Assembly (NCBI RefSeq): GCF_900104535.1
Contig: NZ_LT629710.1
Span: 1,364,001 to 1,428,000 of the forward strand
Length of the DNA stretch: 64,000 bases
Origin: Nakamurella panacisegetis
GTDB taxonomy: Bacteria; Actinomycetota; Actinomycetes; Mycobacteriales; Nakamurellaceae
Direction of reading: 5' to 3'
Below, one piece after another: positions 1,876 to 49,904 of the stretch; the stretch's first letter is position 1, and the number at the start of each line of letters is the position of its first letter. The translations under genes and the position numbers were made by a program. The notes beneath the pieces are model-generated. The model was given only the letters and a program-made list of their open reading frames with translations. It was not told the origin of the DNA and made no database searches.

Positions 1876-2154
1876 ACCAAGCTCCTTCGACGATCCACGA
1901 TCACTTCACGAACCCACCCGACAGCTCAGGTCTGCCCCGTCGTCCGATCACGCCGGACGAAGGAAGACGTGTGCCGGGCCTGTCGGTTCCCTGTGTCCGA
2001 CCCGTTCACTGTCCAACGATTGCTGTGCACCCGCGGTAAGGCGAGCAAATTCCGGGCCGCCCGGGAAGGATCACTTACCTCGGCGAAAGACCGACCCGGG
2101 CGGTCCGAGCACCCACATCGGCCCCAGTGAGAGCGGCCTACGCTGGTGGGCGCC

Positions 2155-3000
2155 ATGACTACCTCCCCCTCGGCATCGCCGAGCCGCCGCAATTGGTACA
2201 GCGTCGACCCCGTCGACGACTTCCAGCTCACGGACCGCCAGGACACCCGACGGTCCATCGGCACCGAGCTGTCCATCGTCTTCCTGATCACGCTCGGGAT
2301 GAGCGGGCTGACCTCGCTGGTCCAGCTCATCGAGACGCAGATCAAGGCCAACCAGGCGAAGACCGTGATCAGCCACTACGTGGTGGCGGTGGCCGCACCG
2401 AAGTCGACCGTCGGCTACATCGATCTGGTCTACCAACTGCTGAGCATCACCCGGGGCTTCGCCGAGGGCGCGCTGGGGTTGTATCTGCTGTGGCGCGCCG
2501 GGTTCAGCCTGTCGCGTCGGCTGGGGCTGAACCTGCGCCGCCCGGGGTGGGACATCGGGCTCGGCTTCGGGCTGGCCGCGGTGATCGGCATTCCCGGGCT
2601 CGGGCTGTACCTGTTGTCCCAGCACTTCGGGTACAGCCTGACGGTCCAGGCCTCCACCATGACGGACGTCTGGTGGCGAGTTCCGGTCACCGTCCTGATC
2701 GCTCTGGAGAACGGCTTCCTGGAGGAGGTGCTGGTGGTCGGATACCTGACCACCCGGCTGCGCCAGCTCCGTTGGTCGACGGCCGCCGTCATCGCCGGCA
2801 GCGCGTTCCTCCGCGGGACGTATCACCTCTACCAGGGCTACGGCGCGTTCGTCGGCAACGCCATCATGGGCATCGTCTTCAGCTGGTTCTACCTGCGGTT
2901 CCGGCGGCTGTGGCCGCTCGTCATCGCGCACTCGCTCATCGACACCGTCACGCTGGTCGCGTATCCCCTGCTCAAGGGGCACGTCAGCTGGCTGCCGTAG
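2155..3000 (+). CDS. CPBP-family intramembrane metalloprotease
   Basis: 281 aa polytopic membrane protein of the CAAX-protease/bacteriocin-processing (CPBP) family. All family motifs are present: the glutamate pair Glu190-Glu191 in NGFLEEVLVVGYL, His224 in FLRGTYHLYQG, and His259 in VIAHSLID. These ligate the metal in the membrane. Seven or eight hydrophobic segments are visible. The ATG at 2155 is preferred over an in-frame GTG at 2146, because a TACGCT -10-like box at 2139-2144 would place the transcript start between them. The substrate is unknown; bacterial relatives act in protein maturation or bacteriocin self-immunity. It stands alone, convergent with the SEC-C gene. Confidence 0.85.
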   Translation: MTTSPSASPSRRNWYSVDPVDDFQLTDRQDTRRSIGTELSIVFLITLGMSGLTSLVQLIETQIKANQAKTVISHYVVAVAAPKSTVGYIDLVYQLLSITRGFAEGALGLYLLWRAGFSLSRRLGLNLRRPGWDIGLGFGLAAVIGIPGLGLYLLSQHFGYSLTVQASTMTDVWWRVPVTVLIALENGFLEEVLVVGYLTTRLRQLRWSTAAVIAGSAFLRGTYHLYQGYGAFVGNAIMGIVFSWFYLRFRRLWPLVIAHSLIDTVTLVAYPLLKGHVSWLP

Positions 3001-3043
3001 TCCCCTGGGCCGCCGGGGAGCGCACGCCGCTATTGTGCGCAGA

Positions 3044-3232
3044 CAGCAGTGCCTTGCGCAGACAGCAGTGCCCTGCGCATACAGCAGTGCCCTGCGCATA
3101 CAGCAGTGCCCAGCGCATACAGCAGTGCCCAGCGCATACAGCAGTGCCCAGCGCAGACGAAAGTGCCCGTTGGGAGCCGGATCCGGCTCCCAACGGGCAC
3201 TTCTGTCTGCGCTGGGCAGGAATGTATGCGCC
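3044..3232. repeat. 19-nt tandem repeat plus 98-nt near-perfect hairpin
   Basis: Six tandem 19-nt units run from 3044 to 3157, each containing CAGCAGTGCC then GCGCA and differing only at a few positions. They lead into a perfect 42-nt palindrome at 3161-3202. The pairing extends outward to arms of about 49 nt (3133-3181 with 3182-3230; 43 of 49 pair), so the last repeat unit is part of the stem. It fills the gap between two convergent genes, where it could end transcription from both sides. A related element lies at 48280-48450. Confidence 0.9.
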
Positions 3233-3243
3233 GGAGGACAGCC

Positions 3244-4188
3244 TCAGCGCAGGGTGAACTGTCGACCGAGGATGCCGTCACGGGCACGGCGCTGGGCCGA
3301 CGTCATCGGCTCGTCGACGGCGAGGGCCTTCTCCAACCGGGCGGCGAATTCCTTCGCCGGGCCGTCCCACTCGCTCGGGTGCGCGTCGCGGTCGAGGTCC
3401 CACACCGGGACCAGCCGACCGTGGGCGCGGAAGGAACCGACGTACCGCGACCCGTCGCCGAGGTCCAGTTCGTCGTCGACCGACAACCGGGCCAGGGCGG
3501 CCATCAGGGGTGCCTCGTCCTCGGGGCGGACCCAGCGCAGGTGCGCCTTCTCGCCGGCGTCGACCCAGTACACACCGGGGAGGTCGGCGACCCGAGCGGT
3601 GGGCATGATGGCCCCGTTGGCCCGTTCCAGGGACAGCGCGACCTCGCTCCCCGGCTCGGGCTCGGCCTCCAGCCACCAGCCGAACGAATCGTGCACGGTG
3701 ACGTCGAACGGCTCGTTGACCACCAGATCCTGGAAGCGCTTGCCCTCGGTGGCACGGCCGACGACCGGCAGCACACTGGACGGCTCGGCGGCGAGCGCCC
3801 ATTCCAGTGCGGCCGCCAGATCGCGGGAGAGATCACCGGAATGGGTCTGCACCTGCATCCCGAGCAGGATCGAGCGATCGGACCGGGTCAGCGCGGCGGC
3901 CGCGGCCGGAAGGACCGTGGCCAACGTGATCGAGGGCACACCATCGACCGGCTGCTGGAGGGTGAGCGGCACGGTGGCCGACGGCACGAACTCCCGGAGG
4001 GCGATCAACTCGGTCTCAGCCAGCAGACCTTCGAAGGGCCGGGCCACGATCATCTCCGCCGCGTCGGCCGCCCCGTGGCACGCCTTGTAACGGCGGCCGG
4101 AACCACACGGGCACGGGCGACGGGGGTTGTCGCCGGCCGCAACGCCGGACGGGACGGTCGAGACTCGCTCTTTGGTCTTCTTGGACAC
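3244..4188 (-). CDS. SEC-C motif protein, DUF5926-like
   Basis: 314 aa. Near the N-terminus is a complete SEC-C zinc motif: Cys26, Cys28, Cys37 and His38 in PCPCGSGRRYKACHG, as at the end of SecA, where it binds zinc and protein partners. The rest (RPFEGLLAETELIALREFVP onward) looks like the actinobacterial DUF5926 family, function unknown. The GTG at 4186-4188 is chosen because a TACGGT box ends exactly 7 nt upstream, the leaderless pattern seen elsewhere here; an upstream in-frame GTG at 4212 is possible but lacks such support. Confidence 0.8.
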   Translation of the reverse strand: MSKKTKERVSTVPSGVAAGDNPRRPCPCGSGRRYKACHGAADAAEMIVARPFEGLLAETELIALREFVPSATVPLTLQQPVDGVPSITLATVLPAAAAALTRSDRSILLGMQVQTHSGDLSRDLAAALEWALAAEPSSVLPVVGRATEGKRFQDLVVNEPFDVTVHDSFGWWLEAEPEPGSEVALSLERANGAIMPTARVADLPGVYWVDAGEKAHLRWVRPEDEAPLMAALARLSVDDELDLGDGSRYVGSFRAHGRLVPVWDLDRDAHPSEWDGPAKEFAARLEKALAVDEPMTSAQRRARDGILGRQFTLR

Positions 4189-4195
4189 ACCCGTC

Positions 4196-4201
4196 ACCGT
4201 A
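4196..4201 (-). promoter_or_regulatory. -10 box (TACGGT) of leaderless SEC-C gene
   Basis: TACGGT on the minus strand, then 7 nt, then the GTG at 4188. There is no Shine-Dalgarno in the gap. Confidence 0.5.
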
Positions 4202-4458
4202 TCGGACACAACGGGCCGGGACCGACCGCGCGCAGCCCGCGGTACCGGCGCCGATCGCCCTGGCACGACCTGAACCCGACCTTGACGGTGGTGGGATTCG
4301 GCCCCGCGCAAGTAGGGTGCTCAGGTCGGGGGTAACGGGATCCTTGCGTCCAGCGGAGCGGCCGTCACGGCCGTGTCCGCAGGTCGCGGCCGACCCGCAG
4401 CCGCCGACGACCGATCCGCACCGACTAACGGTCGCTACCGCACCGGCGCACCCCGAGG

Positions 4459-8819: not shown

Positions 8820-10505
8820 TCACCAGTCGGCGCGCCGGTAGTCCTTGAGGAAGCACCCGTAGAGATCGTTGCCGAGTTCGCCCTGGACGATCGGGTCGTA
8901 GACGCGCGCAGCCCCGTCGACCAGATCGAGCGGGGCGTGGAAGCCTTCCTCGGCCAGCCGAACCTTCGTCACGTGCGGACGCTCGTCGGTGATCCAGCCC
9001 GTGTCCACGGCCGTCATGAGGATGCCGTCGGTGAGCATCTCGGTGGCGCTGGTGCGGGTCAGCATGTTGAGCGCGGCCTTGGCCATGTTGGTGTGCGGAT
9101 GGCCGGGCCCCTTGTAGCCGCGGCTGAACACGCCCTCCATGGCCGAGACGTTGACGATGTACGTGCGCCGTGCCGGGCTGGCCGCCATGGCCGCGCGCAA
9201 CCGGCTGATCAGGATGAACGGCGCCGTGATGTTGCACAACTGCACCTCCAGCAGTTCCAGCGCGTCGACCTCGTCGACCCGCTGGGTCCAACTGTTGATG
9301 TGCCCGAGATCCGGCACCAGACCACCGGCGTCGATCGCCCGGCCGGCTTCCACCATGGCGTTCGACGCCGACCCGGCGACCAGGGCCAGGCGGGAGAGCT
9401 CCCGGCCGCGCAGCCCGTCGGGCAGGTGCGGCAACGGGTGCGCGGACAGCGACCCGGCCAGGGCCATGGGGTGGGCGTCGGAGATGTGGTCGAAGGTCAG
9501 CAGATCGGGCAGCGGCCCGTCGGGCAGCGGATCGGATTCCGCCGCGGCCAGCGGGGCGTACGCCCCGGGGCTGCGCCGGACCGTCTGAGCGGCGTTGTTG
9601 ATCAGGATGTCGAGCGGACCGGCCTCGGCCACGGACTCGGCCAGGGCGACCACCTGCGCCGGATCGCGCAGATCGATCCCGACGATGCGGAGCCGGTGCA
9701 GCCAGTCCGCACTGTCCGGCATCTCGGTGAACCGGCGGACGGCGTCGTTCGGGAAGCGGGTCGTGATCGTCGTGTGGGCGCCGTCCCGGAGCAGCCGCAG
9801 TGCGATGTACATCCCGATCTTGGCCCGCCCGCCGGTCAGCAACGCGCGCTTGCCGGTGAGATCGGTGCGGGCATCGCGGTGGGCGTGGTTGATCGCCGCA
9901 CAGGCCGGGCAGAGCTGGTGGTAGAAGGCGTCGACCTGCGTGTAGTCCTGCTTGCAGATGTAGCAGGGCCGCGGCCGGATGAACACCCCGGCCACCGCAC
10001 CAGCGGCGTTGGAGACCAGCGGGATGCCCTCGGTCTCGTCGTCGATCCGCTGCGGCGAGCCGGTCGCGGTCGCGGCCACGACGGCCTTGTCGGCTGCGCT
10101 GATCGCATCCCGCCGCTGGGCCCGACGCGCGTTCTTGACCTGCTTGAAGATCCGCGCCGTAGCCCGCCGCACGGCCACCGCGTCGGGGTGCTCGGGCGGG
10201 AGGTCCTCGGCCTGACCGATCACCTTCAAGGCCAGAGCCAGCTCGGCGGGATCGATCCGAGCGGCGTCGCGGGTCGATCCGTCACCGACCGGGGCGCCTT
10301 CGGGCCGGTCGGATGCAGGCAGATCGGACGCAGACAGGCCGGATGCGGGCAGGTCGGACCAGGACAGGCCGGACGAGGACAGGTCGGACGAGGACAGGCC
10401 GGACGAGGACAGGCCGGACGAGGACAGGCCGGACGAGGACAGGCCGGACGAGGGCAGGTCGGATGCAGTCAGGGCGGGCACCGCCGGGTCGAGCATTTCG
10501 GTCAC
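8820..10505 (-). CDS. Atypical SDR protein with Cys4 motif and pentapeptide-repeat N-terminus
   Basis: 561 aa. Residues about 15-60 are tandem SSSGL-type pentapeptides. Two Cys pairs (CYICKQDY and CPAC, about residues 180-205) look like a zinc site just before the Rossmann domain, which starts with LTGGRAKIGMYIALRLL. The NNAAQT and VNVSAMEG motifs fit an SDR, but the expected YxxxK reads TNMAK: Thr replaces the catalytic Tyr, while Ser and Lys remain. The reaction is therefore unclear. It is convergent with the GNAT gene, 17 nt away. The start is the ATG at 10505; the repeat region could also host a later start. Confidence 0.75.
   Translation of the reverse strand: MTEMLDPAVPALTASDLPSSGLSSSGLSSSGLSSSGLSSSDLSSSGLSWSDLPASGLSASDLPASDRPEGAPVGDGSTRDAARIDPAELALALKVIGQAEDLPPEHPDAVAVRRATARIFKQVKNARRAQRRDAISAADKAVVAATATGSPQRIDDETEGIPLVSNAAGAVAGVFIRPRPCYICKQDYTQVDAFYHQLCPACAAINHAHRDARTDLTGKRALLTGGRAKIGMYIALRLLRDGAHTTITTRFPNDAVRRFTEMPDSADWLHRLRIVGIDLRDPAQVVALAESVAEAGPLDILINNAAQTVRRSPGAYAPLAAAESDPLPDGPLPDLLTFDHISDAHPMALAGSLSAHPLPHLPDGLRGRELSRLALVAGSASNAMVEAGRAIDAGGLVPDLGHINSWTQRVDEVDALELLEVQLCNITAPFILISRLRAAMAASPARRTYIVNVSAMEGVFSRGYKGPGHPHTNMAKAALNMLTRTSATEMLTDGILMTAVDTGWITDERPHVTKVRLAEEGFHAPLDLVDGAARVYDPIVQGELGNDLYGCFLKDYRRADW
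10311..10470 (-). repeat. 15-nt tandem repeat encoding SSSGL pentapeptides
   Basis: About ten copies of a 15-nt unit (plus-strand form AGGCCGGACGAGGAC) vary slightly at the ends and are nearly identical in the middle. The unit is a multiple of three, so copy-number change keeps the frame. It lies at the start of the atypical SDR gene. Confidence 0.9.
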
Positions 10506-11629: not shown

Positions 11630-12097
11630 ATGTTCCGCATCGCGTTCTACCAGCCCTGCATTCCCGGCAACACCGGCAACGCGATCCGCACCTCCGCCGC
11701 CACCGGCACCGAACTGCACCTGATCGAACCACTCGGCTTCGACCTGTCCGACAGCAAGCTGCGGCGGGCCGGACTCGACTATCACGACCTCGCCTCGGTG
11801 ACGGTGTTCCCGAACCTCGATGCGGCCTTCGACGCCTGGTCCGGCGCCCGAGTGTTCGCCTTCACCACCCACGCCGAACAGAATTACGCGGACGTCGCGT
11901 ACCAGCCCGGGGACGTCCTGCTCTTCGGCCCGGAGCCCACCGGCCTGCCGGCCGAGGTTCTGCAGGACGCGCGGATCACGGCGCAACTCCGGATCCCGAT
12001 GATCGCCGGCCGACGGTCGCTGAACCTGTCCAACGCGGCATCGATCGCGGCCTACGAAGCCTGGCGCCAGCACGGTTTCGCCAGCCCGTCTCCCTGA
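11630..12097 (+). CDS. trmL: tRNA (cytidine(34)-2'-O)-methyltransferase
   Basis: 155 aa, the exact size of TrmL, the minimal SPOUT methyltransferase. It methylates the ribose at wobble position 34 of tRNA-Leu isoacceptors using SAM. The knot motifs are clear: YQPCIPGNTGNAIRT at the start, LLFGPEPTGLP in the middle and the C-terminal IPMIAGRRSLNLSNAASI. The ATG at 11630 begins exactly where the family starts; it has no ribosome site, so the transcript may be leaderless. It is divergent from the NmrA-like gene. Confidence 0.95.
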   Translation: MFRIAFYQPCIPGNTGNAIRTSAATGTELHLIEPLGFDLSDSKLRRAGLDYHDLASVTVFPNLDAAFDAWSGARVFAFTTHAEQNYADVAYQPGDVLLFGPEPTGLPAEVLQDARITAQLRIPMIAGRRSLNLSNAASIAAYEAWRQHGFASPSP

Positions 12098-12215
12098 GTG
12101 ACCAGGTCCCCTCAGCCACCCCGCCACCCCGAGGGGACCAGGTCCCCTCAGCCACCCCGTCCCCGTGAACGACCATGTCCCCGCAGCCACCCCGTCCCGC
12201 TGAGCTACTCCACGT
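12098..12215. repeat. Degenerate ~34-nt repeats with palindromic cores
   Basis: Right after the trmL stop, about four diverging copies of a unit built on GACCAGGTCCCCTCAGCC and CACCCCGTCC occur. The second contains the near-palindrome GAGGGGACCAGGTCCCCTC. The position suggests a terminator for trmL; the repetition suggests spread of a small element. Confidence 0.75.
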
Positions 12216-12270
12216 CCCGCACAGGCACCCCGTCCAGGTCCGGCCCGCCGGGGCCGAGGACAATGCGGAG

Positions 12271-47344: not shown

Positions 47345-48259
47345 ATGTTCGACGACGAAGTCACCCTGCTGTCGGAGGTCGAACACCCCGCCTACGGAGC
47401 CATCCGCGTGCCCGACGGGCGGGCGCTGGCCTGGGCCGAGTACGGAAGTGCCCGCGGCCTGCCGTGCATCCTGATCCCCGACGTGGGGTCGTCCCGTCTG
47501 GCTCCGGCCTGGCTCCTGCACGACTCGGCTCTACCGTCGGCCGTCCGGTTGCTCGCCCTGGACCGGCCCGGTACCGGTGCATCGGATCCGATCGGTCTCG
47601 GCGGCCAGGAGGACCCGGCGGAGGACCTTCGCCGCTTGGTCGACACCCTCGCCGTCGGGCGGGTCGCCGTCATCGGGATCGGTCAGGGCATCGACGACGT
47701 CTTCGCGTTCGCGTCCCGCTACCCGCGGTTGGTGGCCTCGGTGACCGCCGTGTCGGCCCGCATGACGGATCCGCTACCGGCTCGGCGCAGCCTGCGGCGG
47801 CCGTTCGGTGAGCGCGCCACGCACCCGGCCGGCGGTCTGTTCGGGGCCTGGCTCACGGCCCTGGGTTCGGGCGACCTGACGAAGGAATCCACCTGGGCGA
47901 AGGCGATCCCGCGGATGTCCTCCGAGATCAGGGCGGCGCTCGGTGACCGTTGGCTGGAGGAGGACTTCCGCGCCGCGGTCGCCGTCGACGCCGAGCAGAC
48001 CCAGCAGATCTGGGGCACCGTCTCGCGTCCGCCGGCCACCAACGCCTGGCTCGCCAACCCGAACACCGAGGGCGTGCCGGTGCATCTGTGGCACGGGCAG
48101 AACGAAGGTCTGACCAGCGTGTCCGACGTCCGCAGCGCCGTCGGCGCCCGTCCCGGCTGGGAGGTCACCGCCGCCGCCGGCCCCACCGCCGTCCTGGGAA
48201 TCTGGCCGCAGATCCTGTCCACAGCGGCCAGCTCGTTCCGGGCCGTCTCCGCCGCCTGA
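47345..48259 (+). CDS. Alpha/beta-hydrolase-fold protein lacking the catalytic residues
   Basis: 304 aa. The fold is visible: GRALAWAEYGSARGLPCILI, LLALDRPGTGASDP and VAVIGIGQGIDDVFAFASRYP. But the nucleophile elbow, normally GxSxG, reads G-I-G-Q-G with Gly113 in place of Ser. The acid region reads WHGQNEGLTS. The expected His near the end (about residue 280) is missing in AAAGPTAVLG. It may be a binding or regulatory protein. The ATG at 47345 is used because the family match begins just after it; 47210 is an alternative. Confidence 0.75.
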   Translation: MFDDEVTLLSEVEHPAYGAIRVPDGRALAWAEYGSARGLPCILIPDVGSSRLAPAWLLHDSALPSAVRLLALDRPGTGASDPIGLGGQEDPAEDLRRLVDTLAVGRVAVIGIGQGIDDVFAFASRYPRLVASVTAVSARMTDPLPARRSLRRPFGERATHPAGGLFGAWLTALGSGDLTKESTWAKAIPRMSSEIRAALGDRWLEEDFRAAVAVDAEQTQQIWGTVSRPPATNAWLANPNTEGVPVHLWHGQNEGLTSVSDVRSAVGARPGWEVTAAAGPTAVLGIWPQILSTAASSFRAVSAA

Positions 48260-48279: not shown

Positions 48280-48450
48280 GGGCTGCCGTTCTGCGCATGG
48301 GCTGCCGTTCTGCCCATGGGCTGCCGTTCTGCGCATGGGCTGCCGTTCTGCGCATACGTTTCTGCCCGGCGCATACCGTTCTTCCGGTTGCCGGCCGTCC
48401 GGCGGCCGATTCGGGACGTCTTCTATGCGCCGGGCAGTTCTGTATGCGCC
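48280..48450. repeat. 19-nt tandem repeat plus hairpin, second locus
   Basis: Four tandem copies of GGGCTGCCGTTCTGCGCAT (48280-48355, one variant copy) are followed by a 25-nt inverted repeat (48351-48375 with 48424-48448, 21 of 25 paired). The right-hand part (TATGCGCCGGGCAG then TGTATGCGCCGG) matches that of the locus at 3044-3232 at 24 of 29 positions. Like that locus it fills the gap between two convergent genes. Confidence 0.88.
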
Positions 48451-48476: not shown

Positions 48477-49904
48477 TCAGTACGTGACGTCCCGGCCCGG
48501 CAGGCCGTTGGTCGTGGCCAGGGTCCGGTACCAGTAGGCCGAGTCCTTCCAGCTGCGCTCCAGGGTCTGGAAGTCGACCCGGATGATGCCGAATCGGCGG
48601 TCGTAGCCGAAGGACCACTCGAAGTTGTCCAGCAACGACCAGACGAAGTAGCCGCGCAGATCGATCCCGGCGTCCAGGGCCGCCCCGACGGCGTCCAGGT
48701 GCCGGTAGAGGTAGTCGACCCGGTCGGCGTCGTGGACCCGCCCGTCGGCCGACACGGTGTCGTGGAACGCGGCACCGTTCTCCGTGACCATCAGAGGCGT
48801 TCCGGGGTAGCGCGTACCCACGTCGACCAGCAGTGACGTGAACGAGGCGGGGTCGATGTTCCAGCCCATCGACGTGTACGGGCCGGGCTGGGGCAGGAAC
48901 TCGACGTCGTCCGCGCCGACCCACGGGCTGGCGGCGCCGTCGCCGTGGTTGTCCGCTTCGCGCTTCTCGCCGATGCCGGAGAACTTCTGCGCCCGCGAGG
49001 ACGAGTAGTAGTTGACGCCCAGGATGCTCAGCGGGATGTTGATCAGTTCCAGGTCCCCGTCCTGGACGAACGCCCAGTCGGTGATGTGCGCGGTCTGCTC
49101 CAGCAGCTCGGCCGGGTACCGGCCGTCCAGCATCGGCTGCAGGAAGGCCTCGTTGCCCAGGTTGTCGATCTTGCGGACGGCCGCCCGGTCGTCCGCCGAC
49201 GACGGATCGACCGGGTGCGTGACGTGCAGGTTCAGGGTCACCGAGATCTTGGTGTCCGGCCCCAGCACCTTCCGGACGGCCCGGCCGGCCAGGCCGTGGG
49301 CCAGGTTCAGGTGGTGCACCGCGGCCAGGGCCTTCGCGCCGTCGGTCAGGCCGGGGGCGTGCACGCCGGAGGCGTAGCCCAGGTAGGCCGCGCACCACGG
49401 TTCGTTGAGCGTGGTCCAGACCGAGATCCGGTCACCCAGCTCACGGGCCATCCGCTCGGCGTAGGCGGCGAACCGGAACGCGGTCTCGCGGTTGGCCCAG
49501 CCGCCCTCGTCCTCGAGTTCCTGCGGGAGGTCCCAGTGGTACAGCGTGACCACCGGCTGCACGCCCGCCTCGATCAGCGCATCGACCAGGTTCGAGTAGA
49601 ACGCGATGCCCTCGGCGTTGAACTCGCCCGAGCCGCCCGGTTGCACCCGTGGCCAGGAGATGGAGAAGCGGTAGGCGTGCAGGCCGAGGTTCTTGATGTG
49701 CTGAACGTCCTCGGGCCACCGGTGGTAGTGGTCGTCGGCGACGTCGCCGGTGTCCCCGCCGAGCACCTTGCCCGGGGTGTGGCTGAAGGTGTCCCAGATC
49801 GACGGTCCTCGACCACCCTCGGTGGCGGCCCCCTCGATCTGGTACGACGCGGTCGCCGAGCCCCAGAGGAAGCCGTCGGGGAAGGTTCGGTTGCTGCTCG
49901 TCAC
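48477..49904 (-). CDS. GH1 beta-glucosidase
   Basis: 475 aa, full length for glycoside hydrolase family 1. The acid/base Glu168 lies in TLNEPW and the nucleophile Glu375 in VTENGA. The N-terminal signature FPDGFLWGSATASYQIEG is complete, as is WSLLDNFEW for the aglycone site. It cleaves beta-glucosides (or galactosides) in the cytoplasm; no signal peptide is seen. The GTG start has GAGGAAA upstream. No transporter adjoins, so it may serve general glycoside use. Confidence 0.95.
   Translation of the reverse strand: MTSSNRTFPDGFLWGSATASYQIEGAATEGGRGPSIWDTFSHTPGKVLGGDTGDVADDHYHRWPEDVQHIKNLGLHAYRFSISWPRVQPGGSGEFNAEGIAFYSNLVDALIEAGVQPVVTLYHWDLPQELEDEGGWANRETAFRFAAYAERMARELGDRISVWTTLNEPWCAAYLGYASGVHAPGLTDGAKALAAVHHLNLAHGLAGRAVRKVLGPDTKISVTLNLHVTHPVDPSSADDRAAVRKIDNLGNEAFLQPMLDGRYPAELLEQTAHITDWAFVQDGDLELINIPLSILGVNYYSSSRAQKFSGIGEKREADNHGDGAASPWVGADDVEFLPQPGPYTSMGWNIDPASFTSLLVDVGTRYPGTPLMVTENGAAFHDTVSADGRVHDADRVDYLYRHLDAVGAALDAGIDLRGYFVWSLLDNFEWSFGYDRRFGIIRVDFQTLERSWKDSAYWYRTLATTNGLPGRDVTY

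Follow-up and report, generated by a model that had tools for sequence, protein, structure and literature searches.

Mobile 19-nt-phased hairpin elements of Nakamurella panacisegetis and their association with genes for a predicted AbiEi-type PD-(D/E)XK nuclease

Two hairpin elements between convergent genes

The window, that is, the whole 64,000-nt stretch of DNA analysed, comes from the complete 5.01-Mb genome of Nakamurella panacisegetis (G000). It holds two copies of one repeat element, referred to here as the 48-kb and the 3-kb elements. Both lie between convergent genes, as the preliminary description had it, and their features are the following.

47345..48259, + strand: alpha/beta hydrolase gene (PF00561), left convergent neighbour of the 48-kb element
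48293..48368, + strand: array of four in-register 19-nt units to the left of the core, 48-kb element
48369..48430, no strand: inverted (hairpin) core of the 48-kb element, 62 nt
48431..48449, - strand: right inverted 19-nt unit of the 48-kb element, CGGGCAGTTCTGTATGCGC, then CGG
48477..49904, - strand: glycosyl hydrolase family 1 (GH1) glucosidase gene (PF00232, E 9e-158), right convergent neighbour of the 48-kb element
2146..3000, + strand: Rce1-like CAAX protease gene (PF02517), left convergent neighbour of the 3-kb element
3037..3150, + strand: array of six 19-nt units, GCGCAKACAGCAGTGCCY-N, to the left of the core, 3-kb element
3151..3212, no strand: inverted core of the 3-kb element, 62 nt
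3213..3231, - strand: right inverted 19-nt unit of the 3-kb element, TGGGCAGGAATGTATGCGC, then CGG to 3234
3244..4209, - strand: DUF5926 gene with SEC-C motif, right convergent neighbour of the 3-kb element

The 48-kb element fills a gap of 217 nt between the hydrolase and GH1 genes, and the whole 3-kb locus spans 3037-3234. Four copies of a 19-nt unit had been described at 48.3 kb. TRF agrees on the number and the period (4.0 copies of GGGCTGCCGTTCTGCGCAT at 48280-48355, 96% match), but the copies are not all alike, the unit at 48312 being point-changed to GCCCA in place of GCGCA. The GCGCA register starts at 48293, 48312, 48331, 48350 and 48369, so the exact 19-nt spacing runs on into the core, and the fourth unit, which adjoins the core, is the family consensus GCGCATACGTTTCTGCCCG. 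The core folds at -34.9 kcal/mol (64-nt stretch). A recount on the sequence gave the same 24 of 29 matching positions between the right arm of the 48-kb hairpin and the 3-kb locus as reported before. Searching the window against Rfam 15 returned zero matches above the gathering score. Tandem arrays with 15-nt and 35-nt periods, unrelated to the elements, occur elsewhere in the window at 10325-10463 and 12080-12235.

Copies, placement and turnover of the family

The 48-kb locus had been presented as the second copy of a repeat. It is a real copy, yet the two loci belong to a larger family spread over the whole genome: a covariance model built on 15 loci found 30 copies at 26 sites, most with E-values from 4e-18 to about 1e-8. 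All 30 share one layout, in which 19-nt units (GCGCATAC-N6-GCCCG) lead into an inverted core, behind which inverted 19-nt units stand in most cases. The core is exactly 62 nt long in 30 of 30 copies, with spans of 48 to 75 nt permitted, and its arms begin GCGCAT/KAC (consensus GCGCATACGGAACTGCCCGTTTC...GAAACGGGCAGTTCTGTATGCGC, the 19-nt units extending on both sides). The 19-nt units alone start GCGCAK and have no hairpin of their own; they are palindromic only as the 62-nt doublet. Genome-wide, TATGCGCCGG occurs 28 times against 8 for a control, and GCGCAT pairs at 19-nt spacing 33 times against 1. The proposal of a dispersed family with a fixed architecture, not chance, thus survived the genome-wide motif search for random placement without the paired tandem-hairpin layout, as the core was present throughout and the flanking units in nearly all copies. 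Pairing of the core is also reflected in covariation, with two-sided changes at 18 of 28 pairs and a score of 0.313 (0.162 when shuffled and at most 0.124 when slid). The most stable hairpins of the family reach -58 kcal/mol (64 nt).

Within the genus, the model matched in 3 of 17 genomes, namely the source genome, its sister species G005 (about 19 sites) and G014 (a few); in 24 further genomes of the order it had no match. The G014 version (GCGCATGC...) has 19-nt arrays with 62-nt cores at 8 of 9 array loci, and its cores pair at 0.60 in register as against 0.35-0.41 off register. In some G005 copies the end motif is altered on both sides (GCGCGTC...GACGCGC) while the core length stays the same. 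At the site after gltA in G005 (L099, about 1240-1500), the palindrome is preceded by a five-copy 19-nt array of TCCGGCGCGTCGGAAAGTC; G000 carries the GCGCATAC form at this place, so that even the end motif differs between the species. A wide scan for GCGCAT at 19-nt spacing returned mostly unrelated tandem repeats and no further locus with a convincing 62-nt core. Inspection of six viral contigs that contain 19-nt GCGCAT arrays showed all of them to be unrelated, and a phage origin was rejected. A likeness of TGCGCATA to a XerC/dif half-site was dropped as a short chance match.

Whether the copies prefer convergent gaps had also been raised in the preliminary description. On gene calls from our own codon-usage script, not a published annotator, the 26 sites comprise 15 convergent, 11 co-directional and no divergent gaps, against 53, 222 and 50 among 325 background gaps in 400 kb (p = 7e-6 for convergent, 0.016 for divergent). 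The preference is therefore real, but with 11 co-directional sites the better rule is that elements lie just downstream of stop codons; copies often start no more than about 50 nt past one. The corresponding figures in G005 are 10, 8 and 1. Two of the co-directional G000 copies lie inside operons, between nuoL and nuoM and between rplK and rplA. In G008, the nuoL-nuoM and rplK-rplA gaps (L296, L283) hold palindromes other than the G000 element, as if they were recurrent landing sites. Upstream of rplA, a motif like CACCAGTGGGAGGGCC is kept in nearly all genus members (rplK-rplA gap, L277-L293) and possibly belongs to a ribosomal-protein leader.

Comparison of orthologous gaps with G005, whose genes are about 72-89% identical at the DNA level, gave the presence/absence picture that had been called for: gaps were filled, empty or occupied by an unrelated hairpin. 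Several are filled in both species with strongly diverged copies, and others are empty or differently occupied; the 3-kb element is absent at its orthologous position. The clearest case is nuoL-nuoM. In G005, G003 and G015 the two genes meet in an intact ATGA overlap (junction GTTCGCATGA), while in G000 a 104-nt element stands between two copies of ATGAAC, and the GGAGG upstream of the nuoM start is now provided by the right end of the element. An overlapping junction split by one copy means that the elements move, and family 1, as we call this family, has been mobile in at least this one insertion, the only one with clean borders. The direct repeat there could be 4-6 nt; at rplK-rplA, CCAGT is found on both sides. 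At three gaps, the element in one species is replaced in the other by an unrelated perfect or near-perfect hairpin, and the canonical hairpins that alternate in this way include a U-tailed one in G000. Such exchange suggests interchangeable, terminator-like roles.

Genes for the predicted nuclease and their palindromes

The link to a nuclease gene and a second palindrome family go beyond what the preliminary description foresaw. Elements at 385080 and 386399-386832 in G000 bracket one gene, the clade-1 member at 385284-386336, as they do at the orthologous locus of G005, and in G014 two array loci bracket a homologue. The downstream locus in G000 (C1:386399-386832; L063 4400-4833) is a head-to-tail run of four near-identical degenerate copies of about 104-107 nt, directly after the nuclease gene, and a similar tandem two-copy element lies at 845663-845891.

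The product, of about 350 aa, combines an AbiEi-type winged helix at its N-terminus with a predicted PD-(D/E)XK nuclease domain at its C-terminus. Pfam finds the AbiEi_4 domain in 8 of 11 family members, and its matches to the nuclease domain are weak (DUF559 in 4 of 11, MTES_1575 in 3 of 11, best E 3e-4). D244, E255, D257, G258 and K261 are invariant in the 11 members, in a D...E-x-D-G-x-x-K pattern, and the fold is predicted from such sequence motifs. AlphaFold, run on two sequences, gave no usable model of the protein (pLDDT 33), and a PDB sequence search gave marginal matches only, to an AbiEi-like N-terminus (E 0.011) and an endonuclease-like protein (E 0.09). No AbiEii (DUF1814) toxin gene adjoins the nuclease gene at any of the three loci examined; the neighbours are 2-oxoglutarate dehydrogenase E1, amidohydrolase, HD-domain, SDR and adenosine deaminase genes and one unassigned gene. 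Genomes of the genus have 0-6 homologues. No relatives were found in viral contigs or plasmids, and an origin from phages or plasmids was rejected on that ground.

Because the profile for the nuclease gene was made from three members picked for being bracketed by elements, the agreement of family 1 with the nuclease by E-value (3 of 3 genomes) is circular and was withdrawn; on the tree, moreover, the G014 gene falls with the family-2 clade, not with those of G000 and G005.

Family 2 is a palindrome, GCGTGGATCAACTTC...AAGTTGATCCACGC, that flanks other paralogues; it is unrelated to family 1 in sequence and has the same 19-nt period. Counts of its half-site AAGTTGATCCNCGC are 67 for G000, 68 for G005, 36 for G008, 22 for G001, 17 for G013 and 5 for G016, with 0-2 elsewhere and 0 for the control. 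In G000 the inverted motifs stand at a distance of exactly 66 nt, or of 66+19 or 66+38 nt, with tandem half-sites at 19 nt and a fixed core of 80 nt, and sampled sites are 10 convergent, 7 co-directional and 1 divergent. The paralogue clade tied to family 2 (support 99/98) is present in 7 of 17 genomes, i.e., the six with family 2 plus G014 (Fisher p = 6e-4). The G014 member is bracketed by the G014 elements, not by family 2.

Beyond the genus, two loci reached via 19-nt GCGCAT arrays, and not via the gene, hold a nuclease gene beside the array; the gene adjoins the array in a Streptosporangiaceae MAG (L160), and in Sanguibacter keddieii (L201) array copies lie on both sides of it. Close homologues turned up in 53 of the 395 genomes searched across the class. 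When the 260 nt before and after each gene were compared (score above 16), the flanks matched at 30 of 59 homologue loci and at 0 of 243 G000 genes (p = 3e-25). These control genes come from one genome, which is offset by swapped flanks, where 3 of 1500 pairs match and two of the three join the same family in sister species. With 800-nt flanks and a stricter threshold, the counts are 29 of 59 and 0 of 228. At about half of the homologue loci, flanks of 260-800 nt do not match.

The matching segments are mostly palindromes of 60-80 nt, distinct for each gene, and a detector of 3-copy tandem arrays found little around the homologues, so the class-wide signal beside them is one of palindromes, not arrays. 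The palindrome of the G220 gene, for example, is scattered over its genome as about 17 inverted pairs at 42-43 nt, some of them within longer repeated contexts; in four genus mates it has 2 single half-site matches in one and none in the other three.

Arrays with 19-nt spacing were also seen elsewhere. Intergenic arrays of 19-nt units of the TGCGCATAACCG type are numerous in Olsenella/Atopobiaceae genomes, often beside terminator hairpins (L134, L141-L143, L164, L171, L173, L174, L183, L184 and others), and the 8-kb loci around them contained no nuclease gene. Proteobacterial arrays of GCGCATCCTACGGGCCTTT (L144, L220), also at 19-nt spacing, read on the opposite strand as a REP-like GTAGGATGCGC unit.

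Explanations, relation to known systems and significance

The reading that we regard as probable is that these are REP/REPIN-like, non-autonomous mobile hairpins that are served by the PD-(D/E)XK nuclease and locally take on a bidirectional terminator-like role. Beyond the observed association and mobility, we infer a causal role for the enzyme and termination of transcription by the hairpin. The unit of the element would be the 62-nt inverted core, with the flanking 19-nt direct units acting as extra half-sites. The winged helix would bind inverted 19-nt half-sites, much as AbiEi-family proteins bind paired 23-bp inverted repeats (PMC7319586), and the nuclease would cut or nick the palindrome in an extruded or paired form; through repair or integration, a further extragenic site would then receive a copy of the hairpin. 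The core length may be set by how far apart two bound subunits lie, and slippage may shift the array length in 19-nt steps. Copies would be inherited vertically for long times and turned over between species, surviving mainly just 3' of genes. There the hairpin may serve as, or replace, a bidirectional terminator or 3'-end hairpin, and at convergent ends it has probably been co-opted as such. Obligatory strong termination is hard to reconcile with the copies inside the nuoL-nuoM and rplK-rplA operons, so two-way termination would not be the only state of the element. The wider proposal has, in our judgement, an even chance of being right: the AbiEi-domain nuclease would mobilise a class of palindromes widespread in actinobacteria ('nuclease REPtrons'), and every paralogue would maintain a hairpin family of its own, fixed in length and, in some lineages, with 19-nt phased half-sites.

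Several other explanations were weighed. Placement at 3' ends, the presence of a highly stable hairpin between convergent genes and its alternation with canonical hairpins at orthologous gaps would all be expected of ordinary bidirectional intrinsic terminators under selection, with tandem units arising by slippage, likeness reflecting a shared terminator design and the nuclease link being incidental. We hold this to be quite unlikely, since it does not account for a sequence-specific dispersed family with exact 62-nt cores and a 19-nt period, for insertions within two operons and so many co-directional sites, or for flanks of nuclease genes that match at rates unseen for other genes; moreover, convergent gaps in G000 are mostly short, with a median of 34 nt, and the element is absent from all 53 that were sampled. 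Alternatively, another transposase might move the palindromes in trans, the nuclease being a passenger or a parasite that lands in the elements. The action of the nuclease is itself inferred, and a landing-site model would also predict nuclease genes repeatedly beside palindromes. That the matching of nuclease and palindrome is clade-specific in the genus, that different paralogues have different palindromes and that the Y1/RAYT transposase is absent from G000, G005 and G014 makes this explanation unlikely.

If the mover were specifically a RAYT (Y1 tyrosine transposase) serving REP/REPIN elements, the inverted doublets of short repeats and the bias to 3' ends and convergent gaps would be as in REPs (PMC3733652) and REPINs (PMC3116915). 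A search for PF01797, which was positive in 5 of 14 control genomes and in 1 of 17 genus genomes, found none in the three genomes that carry family 1, and the 19-nt units have neither a hairpin of their own nor a GTAG or CGTC tag; we consider this scarcely credible and have rejected membership. Highly improbable, too, is that the palindromes are operators of a winged-helix, AbiEi-like autoregulator that have spread as a regulon. AbiEi-type domains do bind paired inverted repeats (PMC7319586) and copies adjoin the nuclease gene itself, but the dispersed copies lie downstream of genes and avoid divergent (promoter) gaps, and the neighbours are housekeeping genes without the AbiEii toxin.

The nuclease-served mobile hairpins favoured here would resemble REP/REPIN-RAYT systems (REPtrons) in being short palindromes in inverted pairs, dispersed, extragenic and non-autonomous, near the 3' ends of ORFs with few divergent sites, and in having a cognate gene flanked by copies. 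As both the RAYT and the tag sequence were looked for and not found, they are not members of that system, though they would work alike: the cognate gene encodes a predicted AbiEi-winged-helix and PD-(D/E)XK nuclease rather than a Y1 tyrosine transposase, the REP tag at one end of a 20-40 nt palindrome is lacking, and the 19-nt units are phased around a core fixed at 62 nt (family 1) or 80 nt (family 2). With MITEs (NEMIS/Correia, ERIC, RUP) they share small non-autonomous palindromic insertions, terminal inverted repeats, dispersed copies, perhaps a short target duplication and possible folding as RNA hairpins; they differ in their variable 19-nt arrays and nuclease-family association, and among the sequences examined no DDE transposase with matching ends was identified. 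BOX elements of Streptococcus are likewise modular repeats, with variable copies of a tandem module inside a hairpin-forming element, whereas the elements described here have their tandem modules outside the palindromic core, are unrelated in sequence and come with a candidate cognate nuclease. The protein shares the AbiEi_4 domain with AbiEi antitoxins and its weak DUF559/MTES_1575 matches with REase proteins; unlike AbiE toxin-antitoxin systems, its genes are bracketed by palindromes and had no AbiEii partner where this was examined.

Dispersed bacterial palindromes for which no mover is known, such as CGTC REPs and the 'untagged' repeats of actinobacteria and Deinococcus, pose a long-standing problem (PMC3733652). 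The palindromes described here come with a recognisable, clade-matched candidate gene of predicted non-transposase fold in many actinobacterial families, and with a candidate gene and a cognate half-site the question of what moves them becomes directly testable. No paper on nuclease-linked palindromes was found in the open-access literature, where the class is apparently unreported, and the results suggest that hairpins can spread through bacterial genomes by a mechanism that would be new. If this is true, the dissemination of repeats would need no transposase or recombinase from the known classes of mobile element. This would account for a large group of genes with an AbiEi antitoxin domain that, where examined, lack a toxin partner, and it illustrates how mobile hairpins may turn into terminators of convergent genes.
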